NCBI GenBank assembly: GCA_035235625.1 | Contig: CP141150.1 | Span: 2,294,001-2,358,000, forward strand | Direction of reading: 5' to 3' | DNA length: 64,000 nt | Source: Saururus chinensis | Lineage: Eukaryota; Streptophyta; Magnoliopsida; Piperales; Saururaceae | In this document: piece by piece, positions 17,500 through 52,610 of the stretch | Layout: each line of letters opens with the position of its first letter | How positions within the stretch are numbered: the first letter of the stretch is position 1 | Position numbers and translations under genes: made by a program | The notes under the pieces: model-generated | What the model was told of the DNA's origin: nothing | The model's input: only the letters and a program-made list of their open reading frames with translations | Databases searched by the model: none

Positions 17500-17820
17500 C
17501 GAAGTAGGTCTTCGCAGTAGCTTATCATGTTTTGAAGTATGCAACAAGTAATATATCATGTATTCGATAATACAATAATCATTATAGATGTCATCCTATC
17601 GTGTATGCATAACATACATAATGCATCACTAATAACGCGACAAGTGAAACATGACATTCAAGTGTTGTGCTATCATGTCTGAGAATGTATTATCGTGTAT
17701 CTGATAACACTATATCAACTTAGCGTATATAAGCAAGTTAGTTACAAAATGTGAATCAACGTGACTATTGATTATGGTCACAACCTATTGTTGACACACA
17801 CACACATAAATATAATTTTG
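17500..17820. repeat. palindromic-motif array, 5' leader of the accessory gene (MULE A)
   Basis: Imperfect units such as ATCATGTATTCGATAATACA and ATCGTGTATCTGATAACACT follow one another up to the first accessory exon. Confidence 0.6.
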
Positions 17821-18093
17821 CAGACTCAAATATAGAAGAATACAGCAAATGACGGAATCAGTGAAGGCATCAAAAGAGAAGAAGTAGAGAATCTACGGGA
17901 TGAGACCGGGTCTGAGAATGAACAGTTTCCCCACTGGACTTCGACCTTCAAAAGACCTTGTTGATTCATGGCTAGGATGAAAGGCAATCTTGGTGGGGAC
18001 TGGGTTCTACCCAGTATATGATTGCGAGCCAATCATTATCTTCCGGCCACTCCTGGATGTTCTAATTGGTAAGTGGTGGGATGACTCACAAGA

Positions 18094-18098
18094 GGTGT
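18094..18098. other. target-site duplication GGTGT, left
   Basis: GGTGT directly before the 5' LTR. The same five bases follow the 3' LTR at 25591-25595. MULE D has the uninterrupted form of this site (CACAAGAGGTGTTCAACG on its minus strand, near 52090). Confidence 0.9.
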
Positions 18099-19518
18099 TG
18101 ATAAATATGAAATCTATATATATTTTATATGCCTTTTTACCTTATTTGCTAATATAGATTAGGTTAATTTAGAGTTAGTTATGGTTTATTTAGATTAAGA
18201 TAGATATTAGTATTTTAGTTTAATTATTAATGATTTTGTAGTTATTAGTTGTTTAGACATGTATTTAAATCAAGATAGAATTTTAATTATATTCTACATG
18301 TCTAAAATATGGTATTTTATGTTTTGTAGGTAAAGTGTGCTTATCGAAGTACTTGGACGATGTTTGAAATGATTAAAAATAGTCTTCACATGCTTTAAAG
18401 TGATTTGGACAACTTTTCGGAGTTATAAACAAGTTAAAAATTAATATAGACACGAAGGAAAGCTTAATGAACAGAATATGAACTGTCCAGAATTGCAGAA
18501 ACACTGTAGCCGATCAATCGGGGTCACTTACCGATCGATCGGGATAACGTGAATTCAGATGAAAATACAGTGTAGCCGATCGATCGGGAATGCAGGGCGA
18601 TCGATCTGCATAACGTGCAGTTTCCTTGTTTGACCCAAATTCCAATCATTTTCATATTGGACTTCTTCCTACGGAACTTATGCCTATAAAAAGACATATT
18701 TGGCTTAGAATTGGGGGATTCCAGTAGATTTTAGGAAGAGAAAAAGGAAGAAGAAGATGGAAGAGAACTCAAAGCTTTCAATGGAGATTCAAGTGTTTTC
18801 TTCTACAATGGAAGGCTAGACTTTTCTTTTACTTAAGAGTTGATGAAGCTATAGATAAGTTTCAGTTTCTTTTCTTTTTAATTTAGATCTCAGTTGTGAA
18901 TGATGACAATTGTATGATATGGATTTCCTTTTTAATGGAAGAGCTTTTCATGTTTATTCAAGTCTATGTTGATTTATTGTCTTGTAGATGATAGATTGAT
19001 GTGGTTTTGATATTTGCATCGATTCTAATTTCTGTGATTTAGATGAGATGGTCATACAATAGTTTTAATGTTCAGATAATTAATGACTTGGATGAGTTAT
19101 ACTAAGATTAGACGGGTCATGCCTATAGCTAGTTTAGTGTAGATGATTCGTGCTATTGCCGAAGATAGTTCATGCCATGGAAGTTAATTAATGATTCTTT
19201 TTGAAGTAATTCTATCTTGTAGCTGAGAATACTTGTTCATGTTCACACTAAATTTAGATTAAAAGTTAAGGAATTGTTATGGTTTTATAGTGGATTCAAT
19301 TTCCTAAGTAATTTCCATCAAATTAATCTCTTATTTTAAACTAGTTGATTCCTTTCTTTTGCTTAATTTAAGTTTAAGTTGTTTTTAGTTTTTAAATCAG
19401 CAAATTCCTCTTTAGATTTAGTAATAACTCATCCGTCCCTGAGGTTTGACAACCCTTAAATACTTATCCTAGTACAATTACCTTGTACACTTGCAAAGGG
19501 TTTAATTATAAACGATCA
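18099..19518 (+). repeat. 5' LTR of the Athila-type element
   Basis: Begins TGATAAATATGAAATCTATA and ends TAAACGATCA. It contains four copies of a CGATCGATCGG-like palindrome between about 18512 and 18610, about 80-170 bp upstream of the TATA box. Confidence 0.95.
18685..18692 (+). promoter_or_regulatory. TATA box in the 5' LTR
   Basis: TATAAAAA in the context CCTATAAAAAGACAT. It is the best core-promoter candidate in the LTR, placing the RNA start around 18715. The same box is at 24757-24764 in the 3' LTR. Confidence 0.6.
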
Positions 19519-19524
19519 AGTTTT

Positions 19525-19542
19525 TGGCACCGTTGCCAGGGA
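19525..19542 (+). other. primer-binding site for tRNA-Asp
   Basis: TGGCACCGTTGCCAGGGA, six bases after the 5' LTR, is complementary to the 3' end of plant tRNA-Asp except for two G-to-A type differences, which look like methyl-cytosine decay. Use of tRNA-Asp is typical of the Athila lineage. Confidence 0.85.
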
Positions 19543-19838
19543 CGGTATTGATTTGTTACTAAATTAGTATTAGAATAATTCTATCTAATTTAGATTCAAT
19601 TTACTTTAGTTTTTAGGTTAATTTTTAGTTTCTTACCTTTTGTTAATTTGATTTTGTAGGCTGAGTTGAAGATCGTGCTCTCTACACTTGTGGCCACAAG
19701 TGGACATCGACAAGCATAGTGCTTCTCTTCGGTTTGCAAGTTTTTTTTTCTCTCTTAATTTTTAGTTTTTTTTCTTAGTTAGTTTTTACTTATTCTTCCC
19801 CTTTTTACACTTAAAATTGTGTGGTGTGTTTGTGGTGT

Positions 19839-22397
19839 ATGCGTGGTCGTCGCTCCTTACTCCCCCGATTAGTACCATTTGACCCTGAGCCTGAGCGGAC
19901 ATCTAGGAGTGCTGAGTTGCCCTCGACCTACATCCCTACACCCCCAAACTCACCTACCAATTCCTCCTCCCACACTACTTCTTCTCCCATCATGGCTGAA
20001 CATCAGTTAGTAGATGCACCACTTAAAGCTCTAAGGGAGTATTACACTCCCAATGAGTACACCTCTCCTTCATGTATTAGGTTGCCAGCGGTTGCTGCCC
20101 AAAATTATGAGATTAAGCCCAATGTCATTTAAATGCTTCCATCCTTTTATGGGCTTAATAATGAAAACCCGTATAGGCACCTAGATGACTTCTTAGAACT
20201 ATGCACAACTTTTAAGCTCTCAAATTTAACCGATGAGGCTGTTAAACTTCGCCTTTTCCCTTTCACATTGAAAGATAAGGCTAAGGAATGGCTTCACTCA
20301 TTAGAGCCAAACACTATCACAACATGGGCCCAAATGCAACAAGAGTTCCTTAAAAAGTACTTCCCCATAGGTAAGACCAACCAAATGAGAAAGGCCATAA
20401 CCACTTTTGCCCAACTTCCCACTGAACAGTTCCATGAGAGTTGGGATAGACTTAAGGACCTTCTTAGGAGGTGTCCTCATCATGCTGTCCCTAAGTGGCA
20501 ATTAGTGCAACGTTTTTATGAGGGTCTTACTGAACAAAACCGTCATCTTGTTGATGCAAGTTGTGGGGGTACCTTTTTGCTAAAAAATGAAAATGAGGCA
20601 TGGAAACTTTTTGAGGACTTGAGTGAAAATTCTCTTCAACATGCTGCGTTGAATAGAAATGAGAGTGAATTATCTACCTTAAACAATGCCCCCTCTAGGG
20701 GTGACTTGTATGAAGTCAAAAACCCATTAGACCTCTCTTCCAAAGTTGATACTTTGAGTAGGAAGCTGGACCTCCTTATTACTTCAACCCATCAGCCCAC
20801 TCCCTTCACTCAAGATGCATGCACAATATGCCTTAGCCCAGCCCATACTATCATTGAGTGCCCCTCTGCCTCTCAATTTCCTGAACTTGTCCAAGACCAT
20901 GTGAATGCTACCCAATCCTTCCCTAGGGCTGAGAACAATCCATTTTCAAACACATATAACCCTGGGTGGAGGAATCATCCTAACTTTTCTTGGCGGACAC
21001 AAAACGAAGGGGTTATGGGTAACCAACCCCCTAGGCCCCCATTCCAAGTCCCACCAGCCCATATCCACCAACCTCAAGTGCAACCTCCATATGTCCAACC
21101 CAATAGGAGTCCAAGTTTTGAAGAAAAGGTCTTGAGTGCCTTGCAAGGCCTTCAATCTCAATCCCAACTCCTCCACTCTCACACACAATCCATAGCAAAG
21201 TTAGAAGCCCAAATTGGACAACTAGCTAATGTTATTAACAAGAGAGAGATGGGGATGTTGCCAAGTCAACCCTTACCAAACCCTAAAGGTCAATTTCAGG
21301 TAGAGGGAGCTCCTCCCTCTAATGAACAAGTTAATTCCATAATGACCCTCAGGGGTGGGAGGATTGTTGACAAGAGTGTTGGGGGGACACCATTGACAGA
21401 TGATAAGAGTGAGGAGTTAGAGAGGGCAGCCCCTAATGAACCTCAAGTAGAAGTTAGTACGCCACATGAGAAGGAGTTTGTATCTCCTTCCCCTTCCTCA
21501 GAGCCACAGTCTAAGACCACTTCTGAGGGATCTTATATCCCTAGGGCACCTTTTCCTCAGTGTCTTGACATGGCCCCACCATTTAGGAAAAACACAGCTA
21601 AGATGGATGATATTCTTGAGACTTTTAAACAAGTCAAAATTAATCTCCCCCTCTTAGATGCCATTAAGCAAGTCCCTGCTTATGCTAAGTTCCTTAAAGA
21701 CCTATGCACTCAAAAGCGTAAATCTAAGACCCATGTGTCTAAGAAGTTCTTTCTCACCGAACAAGTTAGCTCTCTTTTGAAGTTTGACACCCCACCTAAG
21801 TATAAGGACCCTGGAGTACCCACTATTTCTTGTGTCATAGGTGATCACTCCATCCATAGAGCCCTCCTTGACCTTGGTGCGAGTGTCAATCTACTCCCTT
21901 ACTCGGTGTATGAGAAACTAGGGTTAGGTGAATTGCAGCCTACATCAGTTACCTTGCAGCTAGCCGACCGTTCTGTGCGTAAGCCTCGAGGAGTCATTGA
22001 GGATGTCTTAGTGAAGGTTGACCGGTTCTTTTTCCCTGTTGATTTTATTGTCTTAGATATGGAAACCGGTGCCAACCCCACATATCAGATTCCTATCATT
22101 CTAGGTCGTCCTTTTCTAGCCACAGCTAATGCATGCATAAATTGTAGGACGGGGGTAATGGAGATGACTTTTGGGAACATGAAAGTGCACCTAAATATTT
22201 TTGATGTGTCTAACCATTTGCCTGCAACTTCTAATGCTGAATGTTTTATGGTAGACAATTTTAGATTTGATGCTTATGATAGAAGTCCATCTTTTGTAGC
22301 ATTAGCACATAATCATGTTATGTCTTCTAATTTTTCTGCATCATCTTTTTGGAGACTTAAGAAAAGAGCCAATGCTAATATCTACCAGCCGCCCTGA
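19839..22397 (+). pseudogene. gag-protease ORF of the Athila-type element, with one in-frame stop
   Basis: The first ATG is at 19839. The frame is closed once by TAA at 20130-20132 and then stays open from the ATG at 20133 to the stop at 22395-22397 (754 residues). Numbering from 20133, a retrotransposon gag domain occupies about residues 10-150 (YGLNNENPYRHLDDF, KEWLHSL, FLKKYFP, ESWDRLKDLLRRCP). A CCHC-like segment CTICLSPAHTIIECP follows at about 230, and a proline/glutamine-rich linker and a coiled-coil-like stretch lie at 290-420. A retropepsin-type aspartic protease has its active-site motif DLGAS at residue 580 (LLDLGASVNLLPYSVY) and IILGRPFL near 660. Pol domains are missing. The downstream part may still be made from the internal ATG, but without the N-terminal ~100 residues. 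Confidence 0.9.
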
Positions 22398-24158
22398 TAT
22401 ATTTGAGAATGCTGGCAATGTCTGGTTAAAGACAATAAACTTAGCGCTTCTTGGGAGGCAACCCATGTTTTTGATATTTTTTCCTTCCTTTTGTTTATTT
22501 TCTTTGCTTCATTTAGGCTTTATTTACTTATTTTCTCAGTTTTTTTTCTCTTATTATAGTGTATCTTCTTTTATGAGATATAATACTTTAGGTTTGGGGG
22601 AATGCTCATCACTTATATTTATTTCTTTTCTCCAATCCTATGTACTTCACTTTCAGATTAGTGGATTAGTTATGCTTTCAGGTGATATCTTTCTCTCTTT
22701 TACTTATTCTTGTCATTGTAGTATATATTTTCTTTAACATTGAGGACAATGTTCAGTTTAGGTTTGAGGGTGTAGAAAAATAATTTTTCTTTATTATTTT
22801 TCTTTTAGATGTTTTAGAGTATTTTTTTTATTATTTGTTTTGTTTTCTTTTCTTTTAAGTGGGTTTTATCGCTTATTTTCTTTTAAAAGTATATGTTTGT
22901 TTTTAAAGAGATCAATTTCATGAAGAAAGTTCAAGTAATTAATTAAGTGATGAAAATGATTAAGTGAGTAATTTCTATTTTATTTTCATTATCTTGGATA
23001 ATTGTGCTTATATTTTTAAATCACATTTCACACACTTGAAACTTGTAGGAATATAATTTTATGATTTATTACTTGTAGTCTTAGTGGGATATCTTTAACT
23101 AAGCATATATTTTTGAAAACTTGGCAATTGAGTAATTTTTAATATTTTATGATAGATTTTTATGCTTAGCTTTTATTTGAAAAAAAAATGGGATAAGTGT
23201 GTATAAAAAAAAAGATTGAATGAAAAAAAAATTGAATGAAAAAAAAAATGATGATGAAAAAAAAAATTAAAAAAAAAGAGGTTTGTTTCTCTTTTTACTG
23301 AGTAACCGAACCTTGTGCCTAGGCAAGTATAAGGGATCGCGTCAAAAGGTGAAAAGTTGAGATAAATTCTTTTATGACTTACTTGGTTCTGTAGCATTTA
23401 TTGTTCGAGTTATTAAGCCTGAGGGGTGTTTCAACACCTAGTGCCTTGAGCCAACTGGATTAGGGACACTGGCCTAATGCTTGTTACATGGACTATTTAG
23501 AAAACTTAATAGAACTAAGTATTGCACAAGTCATATTTTGATATATATTATGCTCTTATTCCCTAAATTTAATTGAAATTTGAAGGCTATTACATGAGGG
23601 TTTATTATGAGGTGTTAAAGATGAAAGATTGTCATTGTTATATTTTTGAGTTAGTGAACTTTAATGAGCTTGGTTAATGGGTCACATAAGATATGCTTGT
23701 TAATAAAGAATGAAATTGTATGACTACAAAGTTTCTACACTTTATATTTTTGAAATGTATATATGTAGTTGCACAATTATTTCTAAGATGGGGTTATAAA
23801 ATGGATTATTCCTTACTTGAAAGTGATCAGATCTTAATTGTTTACTTATTTCAAGTATTTGTGGTTGGTTCTTTTTAAAAATAGTTATGTGTTTTTAAGA
23901 GAAAATTGTTTTTCAAATTTTTGTTTTCTTGTTTGTTTATTTTATTTTTCTTAGGTTTTAATGTTTGTGGGTATCATTACTGCAAACTCTCACGAGACAC
24001 AACTCGTCCAACTAGGGACACCTAGGGGTTTAAAGGCTTGTTACATACGCTAAATGCAATCGTGATTCCCTACGAAAGTGGCTTTTATTTTTTTTATTTT
24101 TTTTAAATTAGTTGTTTTATTTTATTTTTGTTTTGCTCGAGGACTAGCAAAATATAGG
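22398..24158 (+). other. non-coding 3' internal region of the Athila-type element
   Basis: About 1.75 kb where an autonomous element would carry pol; no pol-like or env-like frame is present. It holds the GGGAGGCAACCCA motif, two extra polypurine-like tracts (GGTTTGGGGGAAT near 22592; GGTTTGAGGGTG near 22760, after ACATTGAGGACAATG) and an A-rich simple region at 23175-23280. Confidence 0.75.
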
Positions 24159-24170
24159 TTTGGGGGTATT
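24152..24170 (+). other. polypurine tract of the Athila-type element
   Basis: ATATAGGTTTGGGGGTATT immediately precedes the 3' LTR and would prime plus-strand DNA synthesis. Confidence 0.8.
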
Positions 24171-25590
24171 TGATAAATATGAAATCTATATCTATTTTAT
24201 ATGCCTTTTTACCTTATTTGCTAATATAGATTAGGTTAATTTAGAGTTAGTTATGGTTTATTTAGATTAAGATAGATATTAGTATTTTAGTTTAATTATT
24301 AATGATTTTGTAGTTATTAGTTGTTTAGACATGTATTTAAATCAAGATAGAATTTTAATTATATTCTACATGTCTAAAATATGGTATTTTATGTTTTGTA
24401 GGTAAAGTGCGCTTATCGAAGTACTTGGACGATGTTTGAAATGATTAAAAATAGTCTTCACATGCTTTAAAGTGATTTGGACAACTTTTCGGAGTTATAA
24501 ACAAGTTAGAAATTAATATGGACACGAAGGAAAGCTTAATGAACAGAATATGAACTGTCCAGAATTGCAGAAACACTGTAGCCGATCGATCGGGGTCACT
24601 TACCGATCGATCGGGATAACATGAATTCAGATAAAAATACAGTGTAGCCGATCGATCGGGAATGCAGGGCGATCGATCGGCATAACGTGCAGTTTCCTTG
24701 TTTGACCCAAATTCCAATCCTTTTCATATTGGACTTCTTCCTACGGAACTTATGCCTATAAAAAGACATATTTGGCTTAAAATTGGGGGATTCCAGTAGA
24801 TTTTAGGAAGAGAAAAAGGAAGAAGAAGATGGAAGAGAACTCAAAGCTTTCAATGGAGATTCAAGTGCTTTCTTCTACAATGGAAGGCTAGACTTTTCTT
24901 TTACTTAGGAGTTGATGAAGCTATAGATAAGTTTCAGTTTCTTTTCTTTTTAATTTAGATCTCAGTTGTGAATGATGACAATTGTATGATATGGATTTCC
25001 TTTTTAATGGAAGAGCTTTTCATGTTTATTCAAGTCTATGTTGATTTATTGTCTTGTAGATGATAGATTGATGTGGTTTTGATATTTGCATCGATTCTAA
25101 TTTCTGTGATTTAGATGAGATGGTCATACAATAGTTTTAATGTTTAGATAATTAACGACTTGGATGAGTTATACTAAGATTAGACGGGTCATGCCTATAG
25201 CTAGTTTAGTGTAGATGATTCGTGCTATTGTCGAAGATAGTTCATGCCATGGAAGTTAATTAATGATTCTTTTTGAAGTAATTCTATCTTGTAGCTGAGA
25301 ATACTTGTTCATGTTCACACTAGATTTAGATTAAAAGTTAAGGAATTGTTATGGTTTTATAGTGGATTCAATTTCCTAAGTAATTTCCATCAAATTAATC
25401 TCTTATTTTAAACTAGTTGATTCCTTTCTTTTGCTTAATTTAAGTTTAAGTTGTTTTTAGTTTTTAAATCAGCAAATTCTTCTTTAGATTTAGTAATAAC
25501 TCATCCGTCCCTAAGGTTCGACAACCCTTAAATACTTATCCTAGTACAATTACCTTGTACACTTGCAAAGGGTTTAATTATAAACGATCA
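24171..25590 (+). repeat. 3' LTR of the Athila-type element
   Basis: Same length as the 5' LTR and about 98.7% identical by eye. Its palindrome cluster is at about 24582-24682, with two units closer to the perfect CCGATCGATCGG form than in the 5' LTR. Confidence 0.95.
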
Positions 25591-25595
25591 GGTGT
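25591..25595. other. target-site duplication GGTGT, right
   Basis: Matches 18094-18098. The interrupted accessory-gene exon resumes directly after it. Confidence 0.9.
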
Positions 25596-26016
25596 TCATC
25601 ATTATGGGCAAAATACTACCCCTTACGGTGGATGAAGTGGCAATGATCATGGGTTTGAGTGGAAAAGAAACCCGTTCAAATTGGAAAGTGGCGAGGGGAA
25701 GGATGCCCAAGCCAATGGGCAATTCTTCAAGAAGCTCTTCCCAAGGAAGCGTCCAGAGAAGAATCTTATTGAAGATATGTTGAAAGAAATGCACATGGGG
25801 GTCCTAATGTTTTTCACACAGAGCAATAGATCCATATCCCCATCTCTGTGTGATTTCATAGATGACCTAACAGTTGTGGGGAGGTACAATTGGGCTGGGG
25901 TCATTCATGATATGTTGATTCGAGGCATATCATTAGCCCACCGAAACATTAGGAGCAGACAAGAGGAGCGCTCCGCCACTACCGGAATTCTCATTGGGGC
26001 CTCATTTGTGCTCTAG

Positions 26017-26339
26017 GTAAATCTTGTCTAATCAATAAAACGATGTCTTCAATTAGCGTAGTACTAATGACACGATAGTTTCATCACACTCATGTATATC
26101 GTCATCTCACTTACACGATATCATGTGTATCGTGAGTACAAAAGCACAATGTATAACATGCGAGTATGCATATCATGTTATCGGTAAGACGACTTAGTAC
26201 GAAATTGTGTATATTGCATTACACGATAATAGCATACTGTGTAAGTGATAACATGATGATACAATGAAGCGTGTTATCACAACACAACATACGTGACATT
26301 CGTACACTATTGACTAGTTTGTTTTGCTTTGTCCACTAG
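26017..26339. repeat. palindromic-motif array filling an accessory-gene intron (MULE A)
   Basis: Lies between the donor after GTGCTCTAG and the acceptor TCCACTAG. Contains CATGTTATCGGTAAGACGAC and GTGTAAGTGATAACATGATG. Confidence 0.65.
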
Positions 26340-27100
26340 GTATGATTTTGTTAGCATACCTTTATATGGGCTCCTAGCGGTCCTCTATGTAGCCAGAGGT
26401 GCAAGCGGTGGCCGGGGTTTACCCAATTATTGACTGACATGGAGAAGGCCGCAAAACTTGACCCGACCGATGAAAAGGCTAGGAAGAAGCTGCTAGCTCA
26501 TCACCGGATGATGAGGTGGTATGTGGAGGTTTTCATGCATTTGAAAATTATTCTCAGAATCACTACAATTGCCGAAGAGGCCTACTTGATTGATGGCGCA
26601 AGGGCAGCCTCGAAGGCGAAGAAGGCGGGCACACAAACAATGATTCATAGGACAATGAAACCCATCCACACTCATTGTGGCCAGACATTAGGGCATTTTC
26701 AGTCCGGCGAGGACATCATTGAATCCTTTGTCATGCGAGTAGATGTCATGACCAGGATTCGTGATGTTGTTTTGGAGAAGATAGTTCTGTACGGGGAGCA
26801 AGGATGGAGCACTGTCAGCATTTAAGTTGCGTGCTAGCGGGTGAAAAATGATTTGGAGGTGGCAACAAACCTTATAAAACAAATGCAACACCTATCGGAA
26901 CCGGAGACAGAGCATCTGCATGAACCCCCTCAACTGGAAGTCCCTCATGTAGCAACCCCTCCACCAAGAATTGAAGGAGAGCCGTCGGTTCGGGTCAAGT
27001 CTAGAGCTTCTAAATCGAGAGAAGTTGTTCACCATTTTGCTCTTAAAGAGCAAAGAATACTTGTCCCTTAGTCTAACGACGAGGATTTTACTTTGCATAA

Positions 27101-27350
27101 GTATAGTTGAAAAAACAAGAATTTTCCTCTATCGTGTTGGTATGGGGATAATCGTGTAATCGATCACACAAAAATGGAAATAGTTGTTAGTTAAAATAAT
27201 GATATGGTCGTGGTAATGTGATCGATAACACAACTGTACATATTTGCATATTTCGATCAATACAATAGGGTTACGAATCGTGTAATCCAACACATGATTG
27301 ATTTTTGTATCGTGTATGTACTAATATGATTGCTTACTTCTTATATGCAG
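27101..27350. repeat. palindromic-motif array, accessory-gene intron (MULE A)
   Basis: Ends at the acceptor TTATATGCAG. A clear unit is TCGTGTAATCCAACACATGA at 27279-27298. Confidence 0.65.
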
Positions 27351-28218
27351 AGAAAAGGGAGCTAAAAGCAGCCTCCCCAATAAAGAAGAAGAAGGGTTTG
27401 AAGGTTGACAGGACCATAATAACAAGATTCCTCAAGAAAATGAACAAAGAAGTTGTTAAATCCCGACCTGTCAAGGAACAAACCAGGAGGTCAAGGAACA
27501 ATCCCGAGAGGTTAAAGAACAATATTGGGAAGCAAATAATGAAGAGGAAAATAGAAATAAGTGTCAAAATAAAGAAGCAGTTCCTCCAAAGCAAATAAAG
27601 CTGACAATAAAGAAGCGAAAAGCTTGAGATGCTGCCCATATTGCACCCCTCCTACCTCTGGTGCCCCAGAAGTCAAGGTACATAGTTGTTGATCTACCTG
27701 CTCATGTAACTAAGGGTGAGGAGCAACCAAGAAGGTGGCAGCTTAGGGCTCGAAGAAGCCAAAGAATTTCAGTAGCTACATTGAAGAGAGGATAGCAAAG
27801 TTGGGACAAATGAAAAGTGTGGATGAGAAGGCAAATCCTCTGGCATCCGTCCTTGGCCCATATGTTATACCTCCACCACAGATAGTCTCCCACCCTAGAA
27901 GTGGTGGGCTCAAATGCTGCCAACAGTAGTACCACTATATTGGATACCTCTCTAGTTGATCAAGAACTACTAGAGAGTGTCTGCAAAGTGATAGACGTGG
28001 GAGAGAACACTGAGAAATAGAAGAGTGAAGAGGAGGTCGCTTTGGTGCCACATGACTATCTTGACATGAAGACGGTGTTCCACATGGAGATTCAGCGGGT
28101 TGAAGATCAGCAGACCCTCATGGATTTTCTAGCGCACCCATATAAGGACTGGCCCATGGTGACACTTCTCCACACTGACTACATCTCTCTCCTAAAGAAG
28201 GATTGCATAACAAATGAG

Positions 28219-29530: not shown

Positions 29531-29569
29531 TTGTCCAAAACAATTCCAGAACACATTTTTGCTTGGGAA

Positions 29570-42350: not shown

Positions 42351-42359
42351 TTTACATTA
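42351..42359. other. 9-bp target-site duplication of MULE D, left
   Basis: TTTACATTA, repeated at 53190-53198. Confidence 0.8.
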
Positions 42360-42530: not shown

Positions 42531-42800
42531 CAATGAATTTTAGTTTACACGATATCTACTATCAATACTCAAACACACAATATTTATACTATCATGTTTA
42601 GCAAAAAAAATGATAATTATAATATCACACAACTAATGATACAAAATACAAAAGTGATATCTGACAAATTATTGTTAGCATAGATACAATAACACAACTT
42701 CAAAGAATATTGTCTCTTTAATAACACGATAAAATTTGTAAGCGTGTAACCGAATACATGATGTAGAGTTATATCACATATTGTTTAAAACATTAATATC
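42531..42800. repeat. palindromic-motif array, transposase intron 1 (MULE D)
   Basis: Degenerate units (TAATAACACGATAAAATTTG; GTGTAACCGAATACATGATG). Confidence 0.5.
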
Positions 42801-43605
42801 CATTACAAATTGGGTGAATTGGGAGTTTCAACTCAACAGATCTATGTCACACATCGTACAACATTCCAATGCCTAAAGAACATGTTACAGAAGTCATTCA
42901 TACTAGAGTTGGAAAATGTCACCAACAATGGGTGCGATAAGAACTTCATTTAATAACTATGATCCCTCATACAACACTAGAAATTATAATGACTATAAAT
43001 TTGAAGAAATGTGGGGTGATGACTAATGGAATGAGAATAACATAATTGACATGGAAAATATGTTTGACCATGAAGAATTCAAACACTGCAAGGTACCTAG
43101 TAATATTAACGTTGAGGCTAAGGCAGAGTGGGAGAGAGTCGATTATCTCAACCTATTGGAACCAAATATTGGTGAGGGCAAGGTAATGATTGTTAGTTTG
43201 CAAGTAAAGGATTACCAAAATCTATTCCAATTGGGTGTACGTTTCCTAAGCTTGATACATTTCATGAGGGTTTTGATCGACCTTGCAATAAAGGTGAATT
43301 TCCCATATTGAGTTGTGGATGAGAATGATAATACGTATGCTGTAAAGTGCTCCGACCAATCTTGCAAGTGGTACATAAGGGCTTCAAATATAGAAGATCA
43401 TGTGATTGTGACAAAGTTAGTGCCCGACCATGTGTGTAGAACACAAAGGAAGTCAATTGACCATCCTTTAGCATTGCACCTTTGAATTGCAAGAAAATGT
43501 TATGAGTTATTTAAAGATTTAATAGATATTACATTGAAAAGCATAGCAAGATATATTTCAAAGAATGGGGTGTAATTGTGAACTATTAGAAATGTTGGTG
43601 TGCAA

Positions 43606-43873
43606 GTAAGGTACACTTATAATATTTACATAGTTGTGCTTACGAAAACATGACTTTTGAATAGGACATGTTATTGGCTACATGAGGCTTATACAATTGC
43701 ATTTTTCTAAAATGTGACTTGTTTATTTGTCGTGTTACCATGAACACACTGCTTATAAAGTCTAGTTTTACAAAAACACGACTAGTAATCTTTTTGTATT
43801 CTTGGGAACACAACTTGTTAACCTATCGTTTAATCTTTTTTAATGTTAACTTCATAAAATTCGATCGTGTAGG
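43606..43873. repeat. palindromic-motif array, transposase intron 2 (MULE D)
   Basis: GACATGTTATTGGCTACATG and GTCGTGTTACCATGAACACA occur in it. Confidence 0.55.
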
Positions 43874-44589
43874 TAAAACACTATGTGATTTAATTGACGG
43901 GGACTCAAAAATCCTATCACATACTTCTTGCATACGAAATTCATATAGAAAGGATTAATATAGGAAATGTAGTTGTAATGCCCATGATTTTTTATACATT
44001 TTCCTCAAAATTCACAATAGTTTTTTGCAATATAACTGCTATAAATCAGAAATACGAAACCTATGAAAACAGTTTTATAATTTAAAACATAACACATCAA
44101 TTTTTTCATACAAATTTTTACTCATTTGATCAAACATCGTACGGCCAAACCAAGCATCTACAGGCACTACTCGAAAACAACCGTATGAATAAATTGCTAT
44201 GATCATAGACTTTAAATACAAATCTCTCCTAGGCATCCCTGAGTGCAAGTCCCATAACAGTCCACAGTCTAATCCAAATAAAAGTCCAGAATATATAAAC
44301 ACTTGTTTTCTCATCTCACCCAATACATTGGATCATGGTACAAAGATACTTGCAGTAAGTCAAGTGTATACCCGAGTCCAAGTGAATTAATCCTCCAAGG
44401 AAACGAGCATCCATCTTCAGGAGCTCTCTGCACAAACCTGTAAAAACCTCCCGTACAATGGGGCTAAAAAGTAGGGTAATGAGTATTTTCATACTCAGTA
44501 GGAAAATACCCAGTATGACAGTTCTAAACAGTGAACTCAGTAAATCCATACATAGATGCTTTCATGCAACTCAAACATGAAGCAGACAT

Positions 44590-45000
44590 ATCATAATCAT
44601 GCTCATACGCATACAATCATATCAAATGCACCATAGTGCCACAATCATACCAAATGCACCATCATGCCAAAATCATACCATCAAATTAAACTTACACAAT
44701 CACCCTTATCTAGGGTCTTACAAACTTATTCGTACCATCGTATGCTTACTCATACAACATATGCATACTTGTACGACCTTACTCATACAATCATTTGCTT
44801 ACTCATACAACTTATACATACTTGTATGACCTTACTCATATAATCATACTCGTACAACCTTACTCGTACAGTCTTACTCAAAATCATACACTTACTGTCT
44901 TACTCGGAAACATACTCTTACAATCGTACTCATACTCATACTCTTACAGTTGTACTCATACTCATACTCTTACAGTCGTACTCATACTATCGACCACTGA
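44590..45000. repeat. CATACT/TACTCATA-type simple repeat region
   Basis: Many short units such as TACTCATACAACATATGCAT and ACTCATACTCATACTCTTAC, irregularly spaced. It produces spurious open frames rich in H, T and Y. Confidence 0.7.
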
Positions 45001-45199
45001 AGCTTATTACAACTAATAAGCTCCAACGTCTAATGGAAAAGAATGCCACTGGGGCATCATCTTAACCTCCGGGGAGTGACTAGGCGCCATGGACTTTTCT
45101 GAAGGTAAAACACACCTATGCTCATGGGGCACAGGATCAAACAGGTAAGAGTAGATCCATGATACTATTTACCTGAGTGCGCAAACATAAATACCCACA

Positions 45200-45510
45200 C
45201 ATAAGGGGTCATACAGTTGCCCACCATAATGGGTCTTATAGTGCCATAGAATTGCCCACCATAATGGGTCTTAGAGTGCCAGTGTCACTCTTGGGCAGAA
45301 ATCATACAGTGCCACTTGGGAAAAAACATATAGTGCCACACTTGGGCATGTCTGGGCTTATACAACACACAGACCAAATCGGAAATATACCTTGCTCTCA
45401 ACAGAGCATCAGATGTTTGGGCTTCATACAACACACAAACAACGTCGAAAATATACGTCGCTCTCAATAGAGCATCAGACATCCGGTGCTCTATACAGCA
45501 CATAGACAAC
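45200..45510. repeat. short tandem repeats within the LTR-like insert
   Basis: Two copies of a ~35-bp unit (CCACCATAATGGGTCTTA) are followed by about three copies of a ~62-bp unit (GGGCTTATACAACACACAGA ... CTCTCAACAGAGCATCAGA). Confidence 0.75.
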
Positions 45511-46261
45511 ATCTTGCAGGATAAACACTATGGCAAGACATGAGAAAATGCTCAACCGACTTATTGTCAGCTAGCCCAACATGAAACTTAATCCATCGAA
45601 CCCTCAGGTCTCAAACTCACAACGCTATCATTAGCTTTCTTATAATTCAAGTTTGAATTAAGTACATTATGTAGTATAATTATGCCAAACAAACTCATAG
45701 TCCTCAACTGATCAAACAGAAGCTGAGCTCGATTGAAACCCTAGTTCGTTAGGGCAGCAAACTTCATGTAACCAGTCCATCTTATAATGTAACACACCGT
45801 ACACCAAAATCCTTACGGTCTTACAATATCTGCCATCTACCTTATGGCCAAAACATCTTACTCAAAAATTCTCAAACTGAGCTCCTCAGAATCAAACTCA
45901 GTTATACCCTCTTACTAATACCTCACTTATTATGCTTACTTTTCACTTCATAATTTGTACATTATGCTTGTACATTATGCATACTTTTACTGTCTGACAA
46001 TCCCCCAACATGCGCTCTTATCCAAAACAATCTTCTCAAATCCTCGCCCGTTATACTCATATCCTCTGTCATCTGTCATACGCTTACACATCCATATCCA
46101 AATCCATACCAAACACTGACACTTCTTACCATCCATAGCTCATACCTCTGCCCACATACACATACGCATAGCCATAGCATAGGCAAATAGCCATCATACA
46201 TACGTAGGTCTATCACACATACGTATAACATATACATACATTTATACATACGGAACTTACA

Positions 46262-46965
46262 AACATGCTCGCTAGCCATCACTAGTGCATACATACACAT
46301 TTATACATATGTCAAACATACACGCTAGCCATCACTAGCACATACATACACATCCATACATACTTCAAACATGCATGCTAGCTATCACTAGCACATGCAG
46401 AATCCATACATACTTCAAACATACACGCTAGCCATCACTAGCACATACATACACATACGGAGCTTACCAACAAACACGCTAGCCATCACTAGCACATACA
46501 TACACATTTATACATACTTCAAACATGCACGCTAGCCATCACTAGCACATGCATAATCCATACATACTTCAAACATGCATGCTAGACATCACTAGCACAT
46601 GCATAATCCATACATACTTCAAACATGCACGCTAGCCATCACTATCACATGCATAATCCATACATATTTCAAATATACACTCTAGCCATCACTAGTACAT
46701 ACATACACATATGGAGCTTACCAACAAACACGCTAGCCATCACTAGCACACACATACACATTTATACATACTTCAAACATGCACGCTAGCCATCACTAGC
46801 ACATGCATAATCCATACATACTTCAAACATGCACGCTAGCTATCACTAGCACATGCATAATCCATACATACTTCAAACATACACGCTAGCCATCACTAGC
46901 ACATGCATACACATACGGAGCTTACCAATAAACACGCTAGCCATCACTAGCACATACATGCATCC
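46262..46965. repeat. tandem array of ~14 units containing GCTAGCCATCACTAGCACAT
   Basis: The core GCTAGCCATCACTAGCACAT recurs every 45-60 bp, separated by variable spacers (ACATACACATACGGAGCTTA or GCATAATCCATACATACTTC). Two alternating spacer types indicate higher-order amplification. No protein is implied. Confidence 0.9.
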
Positions 46966-47199
46966 AACATCCTTACAATCAACATGCATGTCATATGCAT
47001 TTCAACATGGCATAATTCATCCTCTTACATCATGCAATGGATCATAAGCTAACATCCATAGCATTCAATCATATAGTCTTAGCATGTTGCTACTCATTCA
47101 AAGCATGCTATCATGAAATTATGAGTTCAAAGCTCTCCTACCTCGTAATCATGACGTTAGATAGTGAGCACACGACTGTGGTGGCGTCAGTGGCAGAAT

Positions 47200-48540
47200 T
47201 GGCGGTCAAAACCGTTGCATGGTTGAGAGAGTTGTTGTCCCGAGGATTTTAGGAAGCGCTGGAACTACTCACGGCCAAACGGGGTGTCAAAAATCAATGC
47301 GGCAAAATCTGCGATCCACGACAGCACACTAGGGCGGCCGAGAGAAATGTCGTGCCAGCATAAGTGACGGTGTGGCCAGAAGTCAATAGTGTACTCAATG
47401 AAGATCGGCCAGTGGCTAAGACGTACTCGGCCGGGTGCAAGATGTCGAAATCGGCCATGGACAACACCCAACAAAGACGATTTCATATAAACAAGGGCCC
47501 ACATAAGGGCGGAGAACGTGGGGTGATGCTCGAGGATGGAGGAGAGGTGGAGGAGGGCTATGTGTCAACTCCACTCGGTGGCAAAGTCAAGCGATGGTTA
47601 GGCAGCACAAATCCGGTGCCTAAACCCAAAAGCACACATGTGGCCACATGCACACGTGGGCAAAAAGGACCACTGTAGGGGGAGATGGGTCGGGCAGTAG
47701 CGGTCCAAGGCCCACAAAAGGGTAACTGAGCTATGGATAGGGGGTGGTGGCCAATCGAAGTGGTGACATCACTAATCGCCACCCACAACCAATACACATG
47801 GTGCGGGCAACTGTGCATCTCGCACGGTATAGGGCAGAGGCAAGTGGCCCATTACGAGCAAAGGTATAATCAAGCCAAGTGGGGCTGACCCTCACTGTCA
47901 CTGAGCTAGGGCAGAGCCCATGATGGCCAAATGGCACATGGCTCGCCGATGACAACAACCCGAGATGCACCCAAAGCGACTAATAGGGCAGAGCAATACA
48001 ATAGAGGTGAAACGGGGTCGGACACGGTAACTCCCTACCGACACTAGGTCAAGGTAGGTTGGACGGAGTCCATCTATTGGCTGGACGACAACCGGAAACA
48101 CCGACGTCTAAAAAAAACCATGGATAGTGAGAGGAAAATGTAACCAAAACTTGACTAAAGTACCGGTAGCTCACACTAGAGCAAAGAAAGCATGGCAGCG
48201 GCTCTAGCCAACGCCCATGGGTTCCTAGCGGCCAACCAAACATAAGTCTAACTGAGGGCAGCCGCAAACGACATTGAAATAGCACCCCCACGGCTCAAAA
48301 ATGAGAATTGAAGGAAAGAAAAACCGAAGAAAAGTTCAGTACCTTGTGGAGGAGCAAAGAGGCTATGGCAGCGGTCATAGCCGGTACCTACGCATTCATG
48401 GCAGTGAGGCAAAGAGGATCCTGACAAGAATCAGCGAAATCAGACTACGGAGGAGGGAGAATGGAGCGACCGGAAAAGGGCTCGGGTTTTCACTCCATCT
48501 CTCTGGATGTCAAAATTTTCTTCTCTAAGTATATGGAACG
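47200..48540. other. GC-richer non-coding part of the LTR-like insert
   Basis: Less AT-rich than its surroundings, with overlapping open frames of 70-104 codons on both strands. None has a recognisable domain, and frames switch without splice logic, so I treat them as compositional. Confidence 0.5.
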
Positions 48541-49692
48541 AAACTTACTGGATTGGCTTTTAAGCCAATTTTACTATTCACTCTTTTATTTTTACATTTA
48601 CATCCCTAACACGCGTTAACTTCCCGGTTACACATTGTACCTCCAAAATTCGCACCGTAAGTGCGCAGCAAGGCCCGCAGCTTACAAGTAAGCCCCACAC
48701 CCAACTCTACAAGTATAAATATAGGGAAAAATATATAAATATAAATAAGCCAAAGCATCACATTTTCTAGCCGAAAATGACCAGTAAAATAACAAGAAAA
48801 TCCCAAAAAATCATAAAAAAATCAGGGACCTTACAGTAGCAAGTCCAATCAAACTATGTGATATTCTTGGACCTATAGAGGGAACAATTTTAAAATAGTA
48901 TTTTGGATGTTTGAGCCAATTTCAAGAGCTTTTAGAATAATACTGAGGCCATTGCTAACTATAAATACGACTTTCTTGAATGGAAAGTATCTCGGTCATC
49001 TATTAATAACAACTGCACTAGACATGAACAATAATATGAGATACATCATATTTGCAGTGGTTGAGAATGAGTGTGACAAAACTTAGAGCTGGTTTCTTAA
49101 ATTTCTTAGAAACTATCTATTTTCTAATCCTCCAGTCAAGCTGGATACAATTGTTTCATATAGAAAGGGGTTGGCAAATGCTGTTAAGTAGTATTTTCCC
49201 TTTACACACCATGAATATTTCATCTGTCACATGGAAACAAATATGTTGGACAGATTTAAAGGCAACTACCTAAAGAACTAGCTCCATGTGTTAATTGAAA
49301 CTTTCAGATAGAATGTGTATGAGGAAATAATTAACAACATTAAAGAATATAATCTTGAAGCACTTACTTGGCTAGATAAGATAGGTGCAGAGCACTAGGC
49401 CAATATTACATTTCTAGGCAAAAGATATGAAACAATTAGCTCAAATAGGTTTGAAAGTACTGATGCAATGTTCAAAAAAGCTAGATCGATGCCTATTACT
49501 TGATTAATTGAGCATACAAGGAAGCACACAAGCACACACTTTGAGAAATATCAAACAAATGGCCAAAATATGACTGAAGATTTAATCCTATTTGCTCATA
49601 AACACATCGATAGAAGAAGAGAAGAAACAAGGCATGTGCATATATTGCTAGTATCAATATATGAATTCTAGGTTAACTCTCTATATCACTAG

Positions 49693-49869
49693 GTGAAATG
49701 CAATTAATATTGTGTATATGTTCATACGTTATCCACAATAATGTGTATGTTCATGTGTTAAAATAACACGATAGTTGTGAGCATACGACATGTATTGATG
49801 GGTTGTGATTTTGATAACACTATAATATTACTTATTGTGTTCTCATTAACATGATATTCATTCAATAGG
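49693..49869. repeat. palindromic-motif array, transposase intron 3 (MULE D)
   Basis: AAAATAACACGATAGTTGTG and GTTCTCATTAACATGATATT remain readable. Confidence 0.5.
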
Positions 49870-50384
49870 ATGTAGTGAATCTGATCAAATGTGCTACACA
49901 TACAGAAAGTTTCAGCATTTGAGATTACCGTGTAAATATGCATTGCAACAATTGATAACATACACTTCTATGTGTCCGATTAATATGAAAAATAGTATTC
50001 CACAAAAACATATAAAATGACATATTGAGAGTGATTATACCCAAAGACGGATAGGCACCAGTTGGCATCGACTGGAGTTCTGCCTAAATTCAACCCATCA
50101 ATCCCAATTAAGCAAAGGGGTATCCAAGGAAAAACTGAATACAATCACAACCCAAGGTCAAAGCCCTATGCGAATGTGGAGCATGCCGACAGTTGGGTCA
50201 CAATTGCAAATGCTGCAACAACGCACAAGATGATCCTTCAAATGTGGATGAGGGTCCAAGTAAAAGCTGAAGGAGGGTGAATGAAAGAGTAGGAAAATGA
50301 TACCAGGATGGGGAACATTAATCGAGGTTGCCTTATTTACACTTGTTCTTTAGTTGAATGAAAGAAATGCCATTCACATAATTT

Positions 50385-50570
50385 TGTAGTTGTGTTCTTA
50401 GAAACACGTTTTTTGATGAATGTTGTGTTATCATATATGATAAGATATGCATATTGTGTTATCGATAACACAATCTATTAATCAATGTTTATTATTCATA
50501 TTGTCTTATGTATACATGTCATGTAATCGGAAACATGATCAAATGGATTACGTACTACCAATTTCACGAT
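50385..50570. repeat. palindromic-motif array between the convergent genes (MULE D)
   Basis: Contains a perfect inverted repeat TTGTGTTATCGATAACACAA at 50454-50473. Confidence 0.7.
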
Positions 50571-50641
50571 AAAAAAATGACTTACAATGAATATAATGGA
50601 AATATTTTGTAACTACTTGTACATTGTAAGAGAGAAATGAC

Positions 50642-52120
50642 CTAGAGATACACAGCAGAAGTAATTGTCATATTACATACTAAAAAAATATTAATAGAAA
50701 ATTGCCAAAGAAATGGCAGACGATAAGTTGTGTAAATGAATACACGATACTTTAATCCCATTCTCTGCAGCACAATTTCCATACTTTTGGTTCTCCAACC
50801 CCACTCTTTGTACATGGCGAACTTCTCCAATATGATGTCAACAATCTCAGTCATGACAACTAGTGGCATGAAAAAGTTCTTAATGACGTTTGTGCCAGGT
50901 TGATATTGTCTTGATGATTGGCCACAATGTGTTTGAACATGCATCGTTCTCCTCTGTATTGTTGAATGTGTGGTCATCTTCTTCCCCTTCTAGGCCAGCT
51001 ATTGGCTTCCAATCAAGTGAGCCTCTTTGGCAATTGGACTTGTTTGTTATATGACTTTGGAATCGACCTTCAGCTGCCTGACCATCTCCTCATACTACTT
51101 CCTCATCTTGTGATGAGCAAGCAACTTCTTCCTTGACTTTTCGTTTGCTAGGTCAAATTTAGTGGCCTTCTCCACATCTGTCAGCAGTTGGGTAAACCCG
51201 GGCCACCTCTTACACCTTAGACTATATGGAAGAGAACTTGGAGACCATATAAAAGTGTGCTAAAAAAACCCACACCTACGTTAGCAAAGTAATTCCATTA
51301 ATAGTGATCTAATATCATGTTTGTCGTCTAATCAATAACACACTTATAAACTAATCTTGTTATTGATTACAAGAAATACTCACATTGTGTAATTAAAAAA
51401 ACACGATACAGTAATTTATCATGTTATTGAAAACACGCTAACCTAACTAGTGTGTGATCAATAACATGCAAACCAAATTAGCATGTTATCTAAACCACAC
51501 TAATCACAATAGCGTGATATTGATAACACGATATACTTAAAATGCTAATATGCGGTCGTATTATCAAGTCTACACTAATATAATTAATCAGGTTATCAAT
51601 ACTACGAAATTTACTTATAGCACGAATGAAGCCCCAATGAGAATACCAGCAATGGAAGGGCGCTCATCTTTTATGCTCCTGATGTTGCGGTGGGTTGAGG
51701 ATATGCTGTGACATAGCATGCCATGAACTGCTTTTGCCTAGTTGTACCACCCCACAACATCCAGGTTATCGAGGAAGTCACATAGAAATGAGGAGACAGA
51801 TCTATTGCTCTGTGTGAATAACATGAGGCCCCATGTGCAAGATGGCAAAGTGTGCTAAGTTATCGTCGGAGACAACACACCTATTTTCTGTAATTTCCTT
51901 CAAATTTTCTTTAATGAGATTCTTCTATGGCCGCTTCCCCAAGAAGAACTTTTTGAAGAATTGCCCATTGCCTTGGGCAACATTCCCGTCCCCACTATCC
52001 AACTTCAATAGGTTTCCTTTTGCCCTCAAAGTCATGGTTAGTGAGACTCCTTCCTTCTCAAGGGGTACTATTTTCCCCCGACGTTGAACACCTCTTGTGG
52101 GTCTTCCTAGCACTCACCTA
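50642..52120 (-). pseudogene. MULE D accessory gene, truncated
   Basis: Minus-strand exons of about 52120-51625 and 51215-50745. The first has KGNLLKLDSGDGNVAQGNGQFFKKFFLGKRP and then decayed homology to MULE A 25790-26016. The second has HVQTHCGQSSRQYQPGTNVI and VVMTEIVDIILEKFAMYKEWGW, matching 26640-26820 in MULE A. It preserves the uninterrupted site where the Athila element landed in MULE A. Confidence 0.65.
51290..51620. repeat. palindromic-motif array, accessory-gene intron (MULE D)
   Basis: Dense units: CATGTTATTGAAAACACGCT, GTGATATTGATAACACGATA and others, nearly back to back. Confidence 0.7.
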
Positions 52121-52214
52121 TTAGAAAGTCCATGAGCGGCCTAAAGAATATGATTTACTTACAATCACATACTGGGTAAAACCCAATCTTCTCTCATAAA
52201 TTCTCTTCTTCTTC

Positions 52215-52222
52215 TCTTATGA

Positions 52223-52282
<60 letters not shown>

Positions 52283-52312
52283 CACATACATACATATACA
52301 TATAATAATAAT
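52215..52312. repeat. (TA)n / (CATA)n microsatellite
   Basis: Two long TA runs separated by GTATATGTGTG and followed by CATA and AATA repeats. It lies upstream of the MULE D accessory gene. Confidence 0.9.
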
Positions 52313-52374
52313 AATGGGTCGTGACCAAAACTGAAGAGTCGCGTTGATTAACATTATGTAATTGCCCAAATAAC

Positions 52375-52610
52375 ATTCAAATGCGTGCTAAGTTCATAGA
52401 TCATGTTATTATTAACACAATAGGATGCCTTCCCATACACGATAACATGACTTGTCAATGTCGTATATCGTCTATCGTATTATTGGTAACATGATATTTT
52501 GTGCATCGTATTATTGATAACATGACTATGTATTGTGCATGTGTATACAAGTACTACCTATTGTGTGCCCCATAACACAATATATGAACAACGTGTATTT
52601 GAACATATGA
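52375..52610. repeat. palindromic-motif array upstream of the accessory gene (MULE D)
   Basis: Contains CGTATTATTGGTAACATGAT and CGTATTATTGATAACATGAC in tandem. Confidence 0.65.

Follow-up and report, generated by a model that had tools for sequence, protein, structure and literature searches.

Arrays of a palindromic motif in the non-coding DNA of a Saururus chinensis MULE family are candidate targets of a self-encoded anti-silencing system

In the Arabidopsis transposons VANDAL21 and VANDAL6, the non-coding DNA contains motif arrays specific to each family, and these arrays are the targets of VANC21 and VANC6 (PMC5735166). The VANC21 motif is 9 bp long, non-palindromic, and arrayed in a single orientation, and the VANC6 motif is 8 bp long (PMC5735166). 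According to published reports, Ulp1-bearing VANC genes act on non-coding motifs of their own VANDAL group (PMC13317346), some VANDAL relatives do have TIRs (PMC6446971), and ULP1-containing MULEs are known from grapevine, melon, and rice (PMC2528002). The initial annotation of the S. chinensis DNA considered here stated that no MULE with motif arrays of this kind had been described; VANDAL21 and VANDAL6 show otherwise.

The S. chinensis MULEs resemble VANDAL21 and VANDAL6, as described in PMC5735166 and PMC10398659, in having a second gene with DUF1985, in the dense short motifs in introns, intergenic DNA, and terminal non-coding DNA (with few in exons), and in the tandem repeats in target regions. 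Both also have peptide repeats in the accessory protein: by eye, the variable part of this protein in one sibling copy (L028) contains short peptide repeats. In the same sources, the VANDAL motif differs between related families; here, the one other DUF1985-Ulp1 MULE that we examined (L030) nearly lacks the motif. As in KIU/Kaonashi, the accessory gene combines DUF1985 with Ulp1, and the KIU class is reported to recognize non-coding motifs of its own group (PMC13317346); this likeness concerns domains and non-coding targets. What is new relative to VANC21 and VANC6 is a palindromic target (20–26 bp, unlike their motifs of 9 bp and 8 bp and unlike the single-orientation motifs of VANC21), clear TIRs of about 50 bp (in VANDALs, TIRs are absent or degenerate), and non-autonomous elements that carry the array. 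Also unlike in VANDAL21 and VANDAL6, neither a third gene (VANB) nor DUF287 was seen in these MULEs. Unlike the dyad-bearing MULEs, the ULP1 MULEs of grapevine, melon, and rice are described without motif arrays in the part of PMC2528002 that we draw on.

We analyzed a 64,000-nucleotide stretch of the genome (the window), in which alignment between copies established three MULE copies, A, B, and C. Intron bounds are predicted (they were set from splice-like dinucleotides and protein alignment). The copies and the elements that split them are:

~16,858–34,610, minus strand: MULE copy A, from alignment to B and C and a TIR read
~18,096–25,594, plus strand: LTR retrotransposon within accessory exon 1 of copy A, which it splits
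36,564–42,188, plus strand: MULE copy B, with ~50-bp TIRs and a TSD
~42,350–53,076, plus strand: MULE copy C, left end lost
~43,966–48,850, no strand: unrelated insert within transposase exon 3 of copy C, which it splits

The two genes of copy A are convergent, with the transposase on the minus strand and the accessory gene on the plus strand; its accessory-side TIR is at 16858, and its transposase-side end, including the TIR, has decayed near 34610. Copy B is flanked on both sides by the TSD TACTTACACC (36554–36563 and 42189–42198) and has an internal deletion near 39960. The accessory genes of all three copies are broken, and accessory exons 3 and 4 of copy C were not found. Introns of the three copies are alignable along their length, as had been claimed for intron 1 of A and C.

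Four domain matches within these copies are:

38689–39646, plus strand: B transposase exon 3, MULE transposase PF10551 (E = 4.3e-11 on 38670–39191)
32785–33168, minus strand: A transposase exon 2, MuDR DNA-binding PF03108 (E = 1.3e-11)
25636–26013, plus strand: 3' part of A accessory exon 1, DUF1985-like because it aligns with B (E = 0.17) and with the sibling L026 (E = 4.2e-5)
28509–29089, plus strand: A accessory exon 4, Ulp1/C48 with E = 7.9e-4 and a score of 19.7 bits, narrowly below the cut-off of 20.7 (scored with frames joined and X at stops)

Siblings elsewhere in the genome also encode a MURA-type transposase (L028: PF10551 with E = 1.2e-18 and SWIM with 7.4e-10; L027: PF03108 with 1.8e-7). 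With this transposase (PF10551, PF03108, and SWIM), TIRs, and TSDs of 9–11 bp, the A–C family is a family of MULEs. For DUF1985, copies A and C have no Pfam match of their own and B reaches only the value given above; the match in L026 lies in an open frame of 293 amino acids and scores 24 bits, under the Pfam cut-off of 35.1. Across the genome, 146 of 150 scored DUF1985 places (from 957 candidates) were above the cut-off, and at least eight of these places, judged by eye, lie about 5–7.5 kb from transposase copies and are convergent to them. C48 is over the cut-off in the sibling L029 (E = 9.3e-7). Judging from these matches, the accessory gene has the make-up of a VANC/KIU gene, with DUF1985 in an N-terminal exon and the Ulp1 C48 domain in the last exon. 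DUF287 had no match in the scanned accessory exons, which are incomplete. In a protein database, the accessory read-through had no match at E = 0.01 among 7,641 candidates and a transposase exon had none at 0.001 among 45 candidates. (The same database matched the host's cytokinin dehydrogenase to Coptis at 72% and to Asimina at 70%.) Since the database does contain plants, these nulls mean only that the broken pieces have too few words in common with their relatives. A CKX tree for the lineage of the host left 9 of its 12 internal branches open. The C48 piece had no match in PDB.

The initial annotation described arrays of one motif, with half-sites 2–4 bp apart, in the introns, leaders, and gaps of the three copies. 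This is true of all 19 intervals and in a stronger form than first noted: they share a single strict dyad, TCGTGTTA-N4-TAACACGA, with consensus ATATCGTGTTATCGATAACACGATAT. The half-site gap is not 2–4 bp but 4 bp, with 52 half-site pairs at this gap versus no more than 15 at each of the others from 0 to 13; a second count gave 37 pairs versus at most 3 at other gaps from -6 to 34. (Half-site pairs at gaps of 35–36 come from adjacent units.) The intervals, with the number of dyads at score 8, are:

17430–17822, plus strand: A accessory leader, probably an intron of the 5' UTR, 6 dyads
26017–26339, plus strand: A accessory intron 1, 7 dyads
27098–27350, plus strand: A accessory intron 2, 4 dyads
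28219–28508, plus strand: A accessory intron 3, 8 dyads
29213–30648, no strand: A gap between the convergent genes, two arrays (29213–29519 and 30371–30648), 17 dyads; the interval includes ~850 bp free of dyads
31150–31335, minus strand: A transposase intron 3, 4 dyads
32516–32748, minus strand: A transposase intron 2, 4 dyads
33540–33853, minus strand: A transposase intron 1, 6 dyads
37362–37637, plus strand: B transposase intron 1, 3 dyads
38441–38688, plus strand: B transposase intron 2, 3 dyads
39647–39849, plus strand: B transposase intron 3, 4 dyads
40247–40589, minus strand: B accessory intron 1, 7 dyads
41336–41678, minus strand: B accessory leader, 5 dyads
42528–42811, plus strand: C transposase intron 1, 5 dyads
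43614–43872, plus strand: C transposase intron 2, 4 dyads
49693–49869, plus strand: C transposase intron 3, 3 dyads
50295–50760, no strand: C intergenic gap, 5 dyads including the perfect palindrome at 50454–50473
51272–51617, minus strand: C accessory intron 1, 9 dyads
52310–52640, minus strand: C accessory leader, 7 dyads

The perfect inverted repeat at 50454–50473 had been noticed from the start, and it scores 25.9. With a PWM trained on the 19 non-coding intervals, a score of 8 gave 111 dyads in the 6,899 bp of these intervals (3–17 each), 2 in the exons (12,366 bp), and 8 in a further 42,164 bp of the window, which served as control. Exons are thus largely free of the motif, as claimed, and equal density is refuted. 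At score 5, the counts were 121, 8, and 24. When each copy was scored with a matrix built from the other two, we found 106 dyads in the 6,899 bp of non-coding DNA versus 2 in the exons (Fisher P = 8e-45). Shuffled intervals held 2–9 dyads over 30 runs, versus 111 in the real ones. The LTR insert of copy A, a natural negative control, has no dyads at score 8; the insert of copy C, a second natural control, has five, two of them inside a tandem repeat (44725–44848). Among the CpG positions of the arms (n = 222), 88 are CG, 65 TG, 55 CA, and 14 other; such apparent decay of CpG to TG or CA is as expected for methylated DNA.

A genome scan found 5,534 places with the dyad at up to three mismatches, versus 3 for a reversed control: the dyad is family-wide. 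Around 10 chosen genome matches, nine of the loci are non-autonomous elements of 2.0–2.4 kb with TIRs of the A–C family and 20–31 dyads each, in which no coding homology was detected. The ~50-bp TIRs are clear in these elements and in copy B. The TSDs match at 11 of 11 positions in two of the nine (N11 and N23) and with one mismatch in the other seven (best of lengths 8–11 and shifts of up to 4 bp); L026 has the TSD TATATATAA (9/9). In five further copies (L025–L029), the tblastn-matched exons (13,834 bp) contain the centers of 10 of 203 dyads, and the remaining 36,166 bp those of the other 193. The other DUF1985-Ulp1 MULE, L030, has two weak dyads in 8.6 kb and different tandem repeats. We rejected a second palindromic array, at a locus chosen as another DUF1985 family (L031), as part of the MULE: the 2.3-kb array stretch is missing from a sibling on C8 that is 99% identical. 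This array is thus part of an insertion and is uninformative about DUF1985 targets.

A KIU/Kaonashi study (EMBO J, 2022) reportedly found that motifs recur with a helical period and that non-autonomous copies are helped. In copies A–C, dyad centers are mostly 3, 4, 5, or 6 whole helical turns apart, and likewise in L025–L029. The best period in A–C is 10.6 bp (vector 0.58; none of 500 random placements did as well), and 70.6% of pairs deviate by no more than 1.5 bp from a multiple of 10.6, versus 28.3% expected; among 435 dyad pairs that span different introns, 26.2% are near such multiples. In L025–L029, 78.5% of 158 neighbor distances are near helical multiples, and 65.1% of those away from 3-turn multiples are still helical; 0 of 1000 random placements were as good. 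For A–C neighbors off 3-turn multiples, a period of 10.6 bp outperforms local jitter (P = 0.004–0.008) but ranks behind the strongest period, 12.7 or 13.7 bp (from 26 or 29 distances). The non-autonomous arrays are not purely helical: distances of 24, 41, 55/56, and 86/87 bp occur too, and the best fit is 7.9 bp.

We propose, with a probability of roughly 0.7, that the arrays are the cis targets of a self-encoded, sequence-specific anti-silencing system of the VANC/KIU type. We infer that the accessory protein (DUF1985 plus Ulp1-like C48) is the DNA binder and that it probably sits on the 20-bp dyad as a symmetric dimer. Dyads at whole helical turns would place neighboring dimers on one face of the helix, where they may bind cooperatively, and cooperative binding would restrict occupancy to dense arrays, that is, to the family's own copies. 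With the introns, leader, and intergenic gap occupied, DNA methylation would be removed or excluded across the element, which would switch on both the transposase and the accessory gene. Non-autonomous elements with TIRs and an amplified array would be freed and mobilized in trans.

A protein-binding site was one of three readings in the initial annotation, and it is the best supported of them, but the transposase, named there as the binder, is unlikely because the transposase-side ends lack a dyad (best scores of 1.6 in A, -0.2 in B, and -2.8 in L026). An unlikely but still credible rival is that the dyads are the transposase's own sites, used for the transposition complex or for gene regulation. 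In En/Spm, a member of the CACTA superfamily, TnpA binds many short subterminal motifs at both ends and has a demethylating effect; here, too, a transposon protein would act on many copies of a short motif. The non-autonomous copies, whose sole need is the transposase, retain the array, and on the accessory side, beyond the 19 intervals, the ends of A and B have half-sites and one weak dyad each (8.3 and 8.4). However, the main array of the non-autonomous elements is about 500–680 bp from the ends, six of nine have no dyad at score 8 within the 300 bp at either end, and internal introns, where these dyads lie (the element being a MULE, not a CACTA transposon), are an odd location for transposition sites. 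We also rejected the motif as a component of the TIRs, as it is missing from the three transposase-side ends examined.

We consider it quite improbable that the dyads recruit a host factor (an enhancer, insulator, or nucleosome organizer) that opens the element, with the accessory gene in a different role. Any dimeric factor would be compatible with the helical phasing and the dyad symmetry, but there is little sign of use beyond the family, given the few dyads in control DNA and the three reversed-control matches (with ten match loci examined), and L030 nearly lacks the motif.

Slightly less credible again is a functionless satellite unit that spread through the element's non-coding DNA and is now decaying. 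The non-autonomous arrays clearly grew by higher-order tandem duplication. For the intron arrays, the satellite reading of the initial annotation is weak: beyond the core of A–C units, information drops to near background, consecutive spacers (0.353, 17 pairs) are hardly more alike than random spacers (0.306), and neighboring cores (0.565, 50 pairs) are hardly more alike than any two cores (0.541). We rejected a simple 31.5-bp satellite as their origin, as only the core is common to the units; spacings of 4 and 5 turns alongside 3 and 6 also speak against it. Between A, B, and C, the conservation of cores (0.655) differs little from that of spacers (0.599). In L026–L029, intron cores evolve at the spacer rate, as a decaying satellite would (0.886 for both in non-CpG-type columns, with exons at 0.918; 0.816 versus 0.819 in all columns, with exons at 0.876). 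Because these cores are no better conserved than spacers, single intron dyads seem to have been under no recent constraint. In the non-autonomous elements, the median divergence in non-CpG-type columns is 0.060 for cores versus 0.097 for spacers, and it is lower for cores in 34 of 36 pairs (joint alignment: 0.047 versus 0.095); the advantage is seen only without CpG-type columns, and over all columns cores and spacers score equally (0.849 versus 0.848). The cores of these arrays are apparently under constraint, but gene conversion could have the same effect.

Every unit is an inverted repeat, but hairpins that feed small-RNA production, as the initial annotation suggested, or affect splicing are scarcely credible, as the arms show no covariation or other sign of selection on pairing (603 of 1110 matches within units versus 609.9 ± 12.1 with shuffled partners; P = 0.72) and the helical spacing indicates double-stranded DNA.

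If the anti-silencing reading is right, then sequence-specific transposon anti-silencing gains a geometrically well-defined target, a strict dyad whose copies mostly lie whole helical turns apart, and dimer binding and the spacing rules are directly testable on synthetic arrays. Tools for targeted demethylation would likewise profit from rules for a target that is long, rare, and palindromic. Tentatively, and with more doubt than confidence, we raise the possibility that transposons recognize themselves in a second way: through a DUF1985-Ulp1 dimer that reads a long palindrome and assembles on arrays with helical phasing, in a MULE whose TIRs are intact, with non-autonomous array carriers that exploit or compete for the anti-silencing protein. 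These carriers, which have the array and TIRs and no detected coding homology, would provide a test of whether the array is the sole trait required for being freed in trans.

One MULE family is present three times in the window, as copies that we call A, B, and C. In each, a transposase gene converges with an accessory gene, and both genes are broken in all three copies by stops, shifts, or deletions. The copies and the insert in A are as follows.

16.86-34.61 kb: MULE copy A, interrupted by an LTR retrotransposon; its transposase gene is on the minus strand.
18096-25594: the LTR retrotransposon, which lies inside the first accessory exon of A.
36.56-42.19 kb: MULE copy B, with TIRs of about 50 bp and a 10-bp TSD (TACTTACACC).
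42.35-53.08 kb: MULE copy C, split by another insert.

The inserts in A and in C served as internal controls for motif counts. The direct repeats of the LTR retrotransposon (at 18098 and 24170) share 99% identity across the 300 bases that were compared; by eye, each is about 1.4 kb long and the target duplication is GTGTT. Its main open reading frame of at least 120 amino acids is a single gag and aspartic-protease frame (20133-22397), and the element looks non-autonomous. Within the insert in C, 46244-46974 contains about 14 tandem copies of a 50-bp unit with the short inverted repeat GCTAG-N6-CTAGC. For the flanking cytokinin dehydrogenase gene, the best named matches are from Coptis and Asimina, but a tree of this gene did not assign it to a lineage.

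To describe the motif, we refined a symmetric position weight matrix (PWM) on 19 non-coding intervals of A, B, and C, which gave the palindromic consensus ATATCGTGTTATCGATAACACGATAT. At a score threshold of 8, these intervals contain 111 sites in 6,899 bp (3 to 17 per interval), as compared to 8 sites in 42,164 bp of control DNA and just 2 in 12,366 bp of exons, so that the exons are indeed largely free of the motif, as the initial annotation had proposed. At a threshold of 5, the counts are 121, 24, and 8, respectively. Because the matrix was trained on the same intervals that were counted, we also trained it on two copies and tested it on the third, and this gave 106 non-coding sites and 2 exon sites. 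Furthermore, a matrix from transposase introns only finds 34 sites in the accessory introns, and the converse training finds 32. Since the introns of either gene predict the sites of the other, non-homologous introns do share one motif, as had been suggested. The half-sites had been described as 2 to 4 nucleotides apart; a gap of 4 is borne out, while the variation is not, as the gap is constant. At the accessory-side ends of A (16940-16999) and B (42040-42105), we also noticed two outward-facing half-sites each, about 50-55 bp apart, one of which (in A) sits within GGGTTTTATATCGTGTAAAACCC. These half-sites may belong to the promoter of the accessory gene.

In the intron arrays, little information above background is left farther than about 12 bp from the unit center, and adjacent spacers, like adjacent cores, are barely more similar than random ones. 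The core alone is common to the units. A search for covariation between the arms within these units found none. The motif's CpGs have decayed to TG and CA, as would be expected in methylated DNA. The introns of A, B, and C can be aligned (65.5% identity in motif columns versus 59.9% in spacers), so the arrays came before the copies, in agreement with the initial annotation.

Neighboring site centers in A, B, and C are chiefly 31-32, 42-43, 53, or 64 bp apart. Across all pairs, the best period is 10.6 bp with phase zero (10.65 bp at score 8). For pairs across different introns of one element, 26% of 435 are no more than 1.5 bp off a multiple, which is about chance, and a weak vector of 0.23 persists. 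At distances off the three-turn multiples, which are a small set, the strongest period is 12.7 or 13.7 bp, not 10.6 bp. The pattern is repeated in five further copies of the family (L025-L029; best periods of 10.55, 5.35 and then 10.75, 10.7, 10.8, and 10.9 bp), in which 78.5% of 158 neighbor distances deviate from a multiple by at most 1.5 bp. Phasing beats local jitter at the off-three-turn distances (P = 0.004-0.008) and was matched by 0 of 1,000 random placements in L025-L029, but all of these P values are optimistic because homologous pairs across copies are not independent.

The genome comprises 11 contigs and 516 Mb, and it contains 5,534 places that match the 22-bp core with up to three mismatches, versus 3 for a reversed control. 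(A search with the transposase exon gave 150 scored copies out of 2,758 candidates.) We fetched 20 kb around each of ten loci, picked among the zero- and one-mismatch places listed, a choice that is biased toward dense arrays. Nine of them contain elements of 2.0-2.4 kb with this family's TIRs and 20-31 sites. The transposase and accessory exon pieces used as tblastn queries had no match in these nine elements, whose longest stop-to-stop frames are 71-125 amino acids and whose ends are about 70%-80% alike to those of A and B. The TSDs are perfect over 11 bp in two of these elements. In the remaining seven, even the best of several lengths and shifts leaves one mismatch, and some of these TSDs are weak. 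Higher-order tandem duplication is visible in their arrays. Their neighbor spacings are mostly 31/32 bp (163 of 234) and include 41 bp (23) and 55/56 bp (13), so the helical spacing is kept only partly; the best-fitting period is 7.9 bp. Among the one-mismatch matches listed, a one-sided variant, AGCGTGTTATCGATAACACGAT, turns up repeatedly, also at loci with these elements.

In a joint alignment of the nine non-autonomous elements, divergence at non-CpG-type columns is 0.047 in cores, 0.095 in spacers, and 0.090 in terminal parts (pairwise medians of 0.060, 0.097, and 0.093). Of the 36 pairs, 34 show lower divergence in the core, and the result is stable if any one element is omitted. Over all columns, identity does not differ (0.849, 0.848, and 0.855) because many decaying CpGs lie in the cores. 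The reduced core divergence could also be explained by gene conversion. In L026-L029, core and spacer identities show no difference at non-CpG-type columns (0.886 for both) or at all columns (0.816 versus 0.819). We read these equal rates as redundancy of single sites in the autonomous copies, where they nonetheless count against strong selection.

A second palindrome-array element was seen at another locus.

L031:4883-7195: a 2.3-kb stretch with no counterpart in a sibling on contig C8 that is 99% identical.

The stretch contains a different palindrome, AACGCTGCAACGTTGCAGCGTT, in 53-56 units spaced mostly by 22 and 29 bp, and is bounded by 208-bp inverted repeats (96% identical).

In the window, the accessory gene matches C48 in A (E = 7.9e-4) and DUF1985 in B only (E = 0.17). 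Better-preserved siblings match DUF1985 below Pfam's cut-off (L026, E = 4.2e-5) and C48 above it (L029, E = 9.3e-7). In a genome search for DUF1985, 146 of 150 scored places exceed the cut-off. As judged by eye, eight or more of the DUF1985 places lie about 5-7.5 kb from transposase copies and are convergent to them. The middle of the accessory protein in L028 (1147-1740, plus strand) has, by eye, degenerate short peptide repeats (EVEEPELP-like), similar to those reported for VANC variable regions (PMC5735166).

In Arabidopsis, the 9-bp motif bound by VANC21 of VANDAL21 is dense in intron, intergenic, and terminal non-coding DNA, and VANC21 causes loss of methylation across the element; the VANC6 motif is different (PMC5735166). 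Ulp1-bearing VANC genes (KIU) reportedly act likewise inside their own group (PMC13317346). Another MULE from the Saururus genome (L030) has a largely open, convergent DUF1985-Ulp1 gene (DUF1985, E = 4.3e-12; C48, E = 1.1e-15). Its palindromes are nearly absent (just two weak sites), and it has other tandem repeats, of 56 bp upstream of the detected transposase exons and of 199 bp upstream of the accessory gene. This one case fits family-specific targets.

VANDALs that bear VANC or KIU genes have the same gene types and motif placement as the family of A, B, and C, whereas this family has a long palindromic motif, clear TIRs, and non-autonomous carriers of the arrays. Because of these differences, we name it a VANC-like system by its probable way of working, and not a VANDAL. 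A putative binder of the palindrome would dimerize, bind cooperatively, and bring about loss of methylation.
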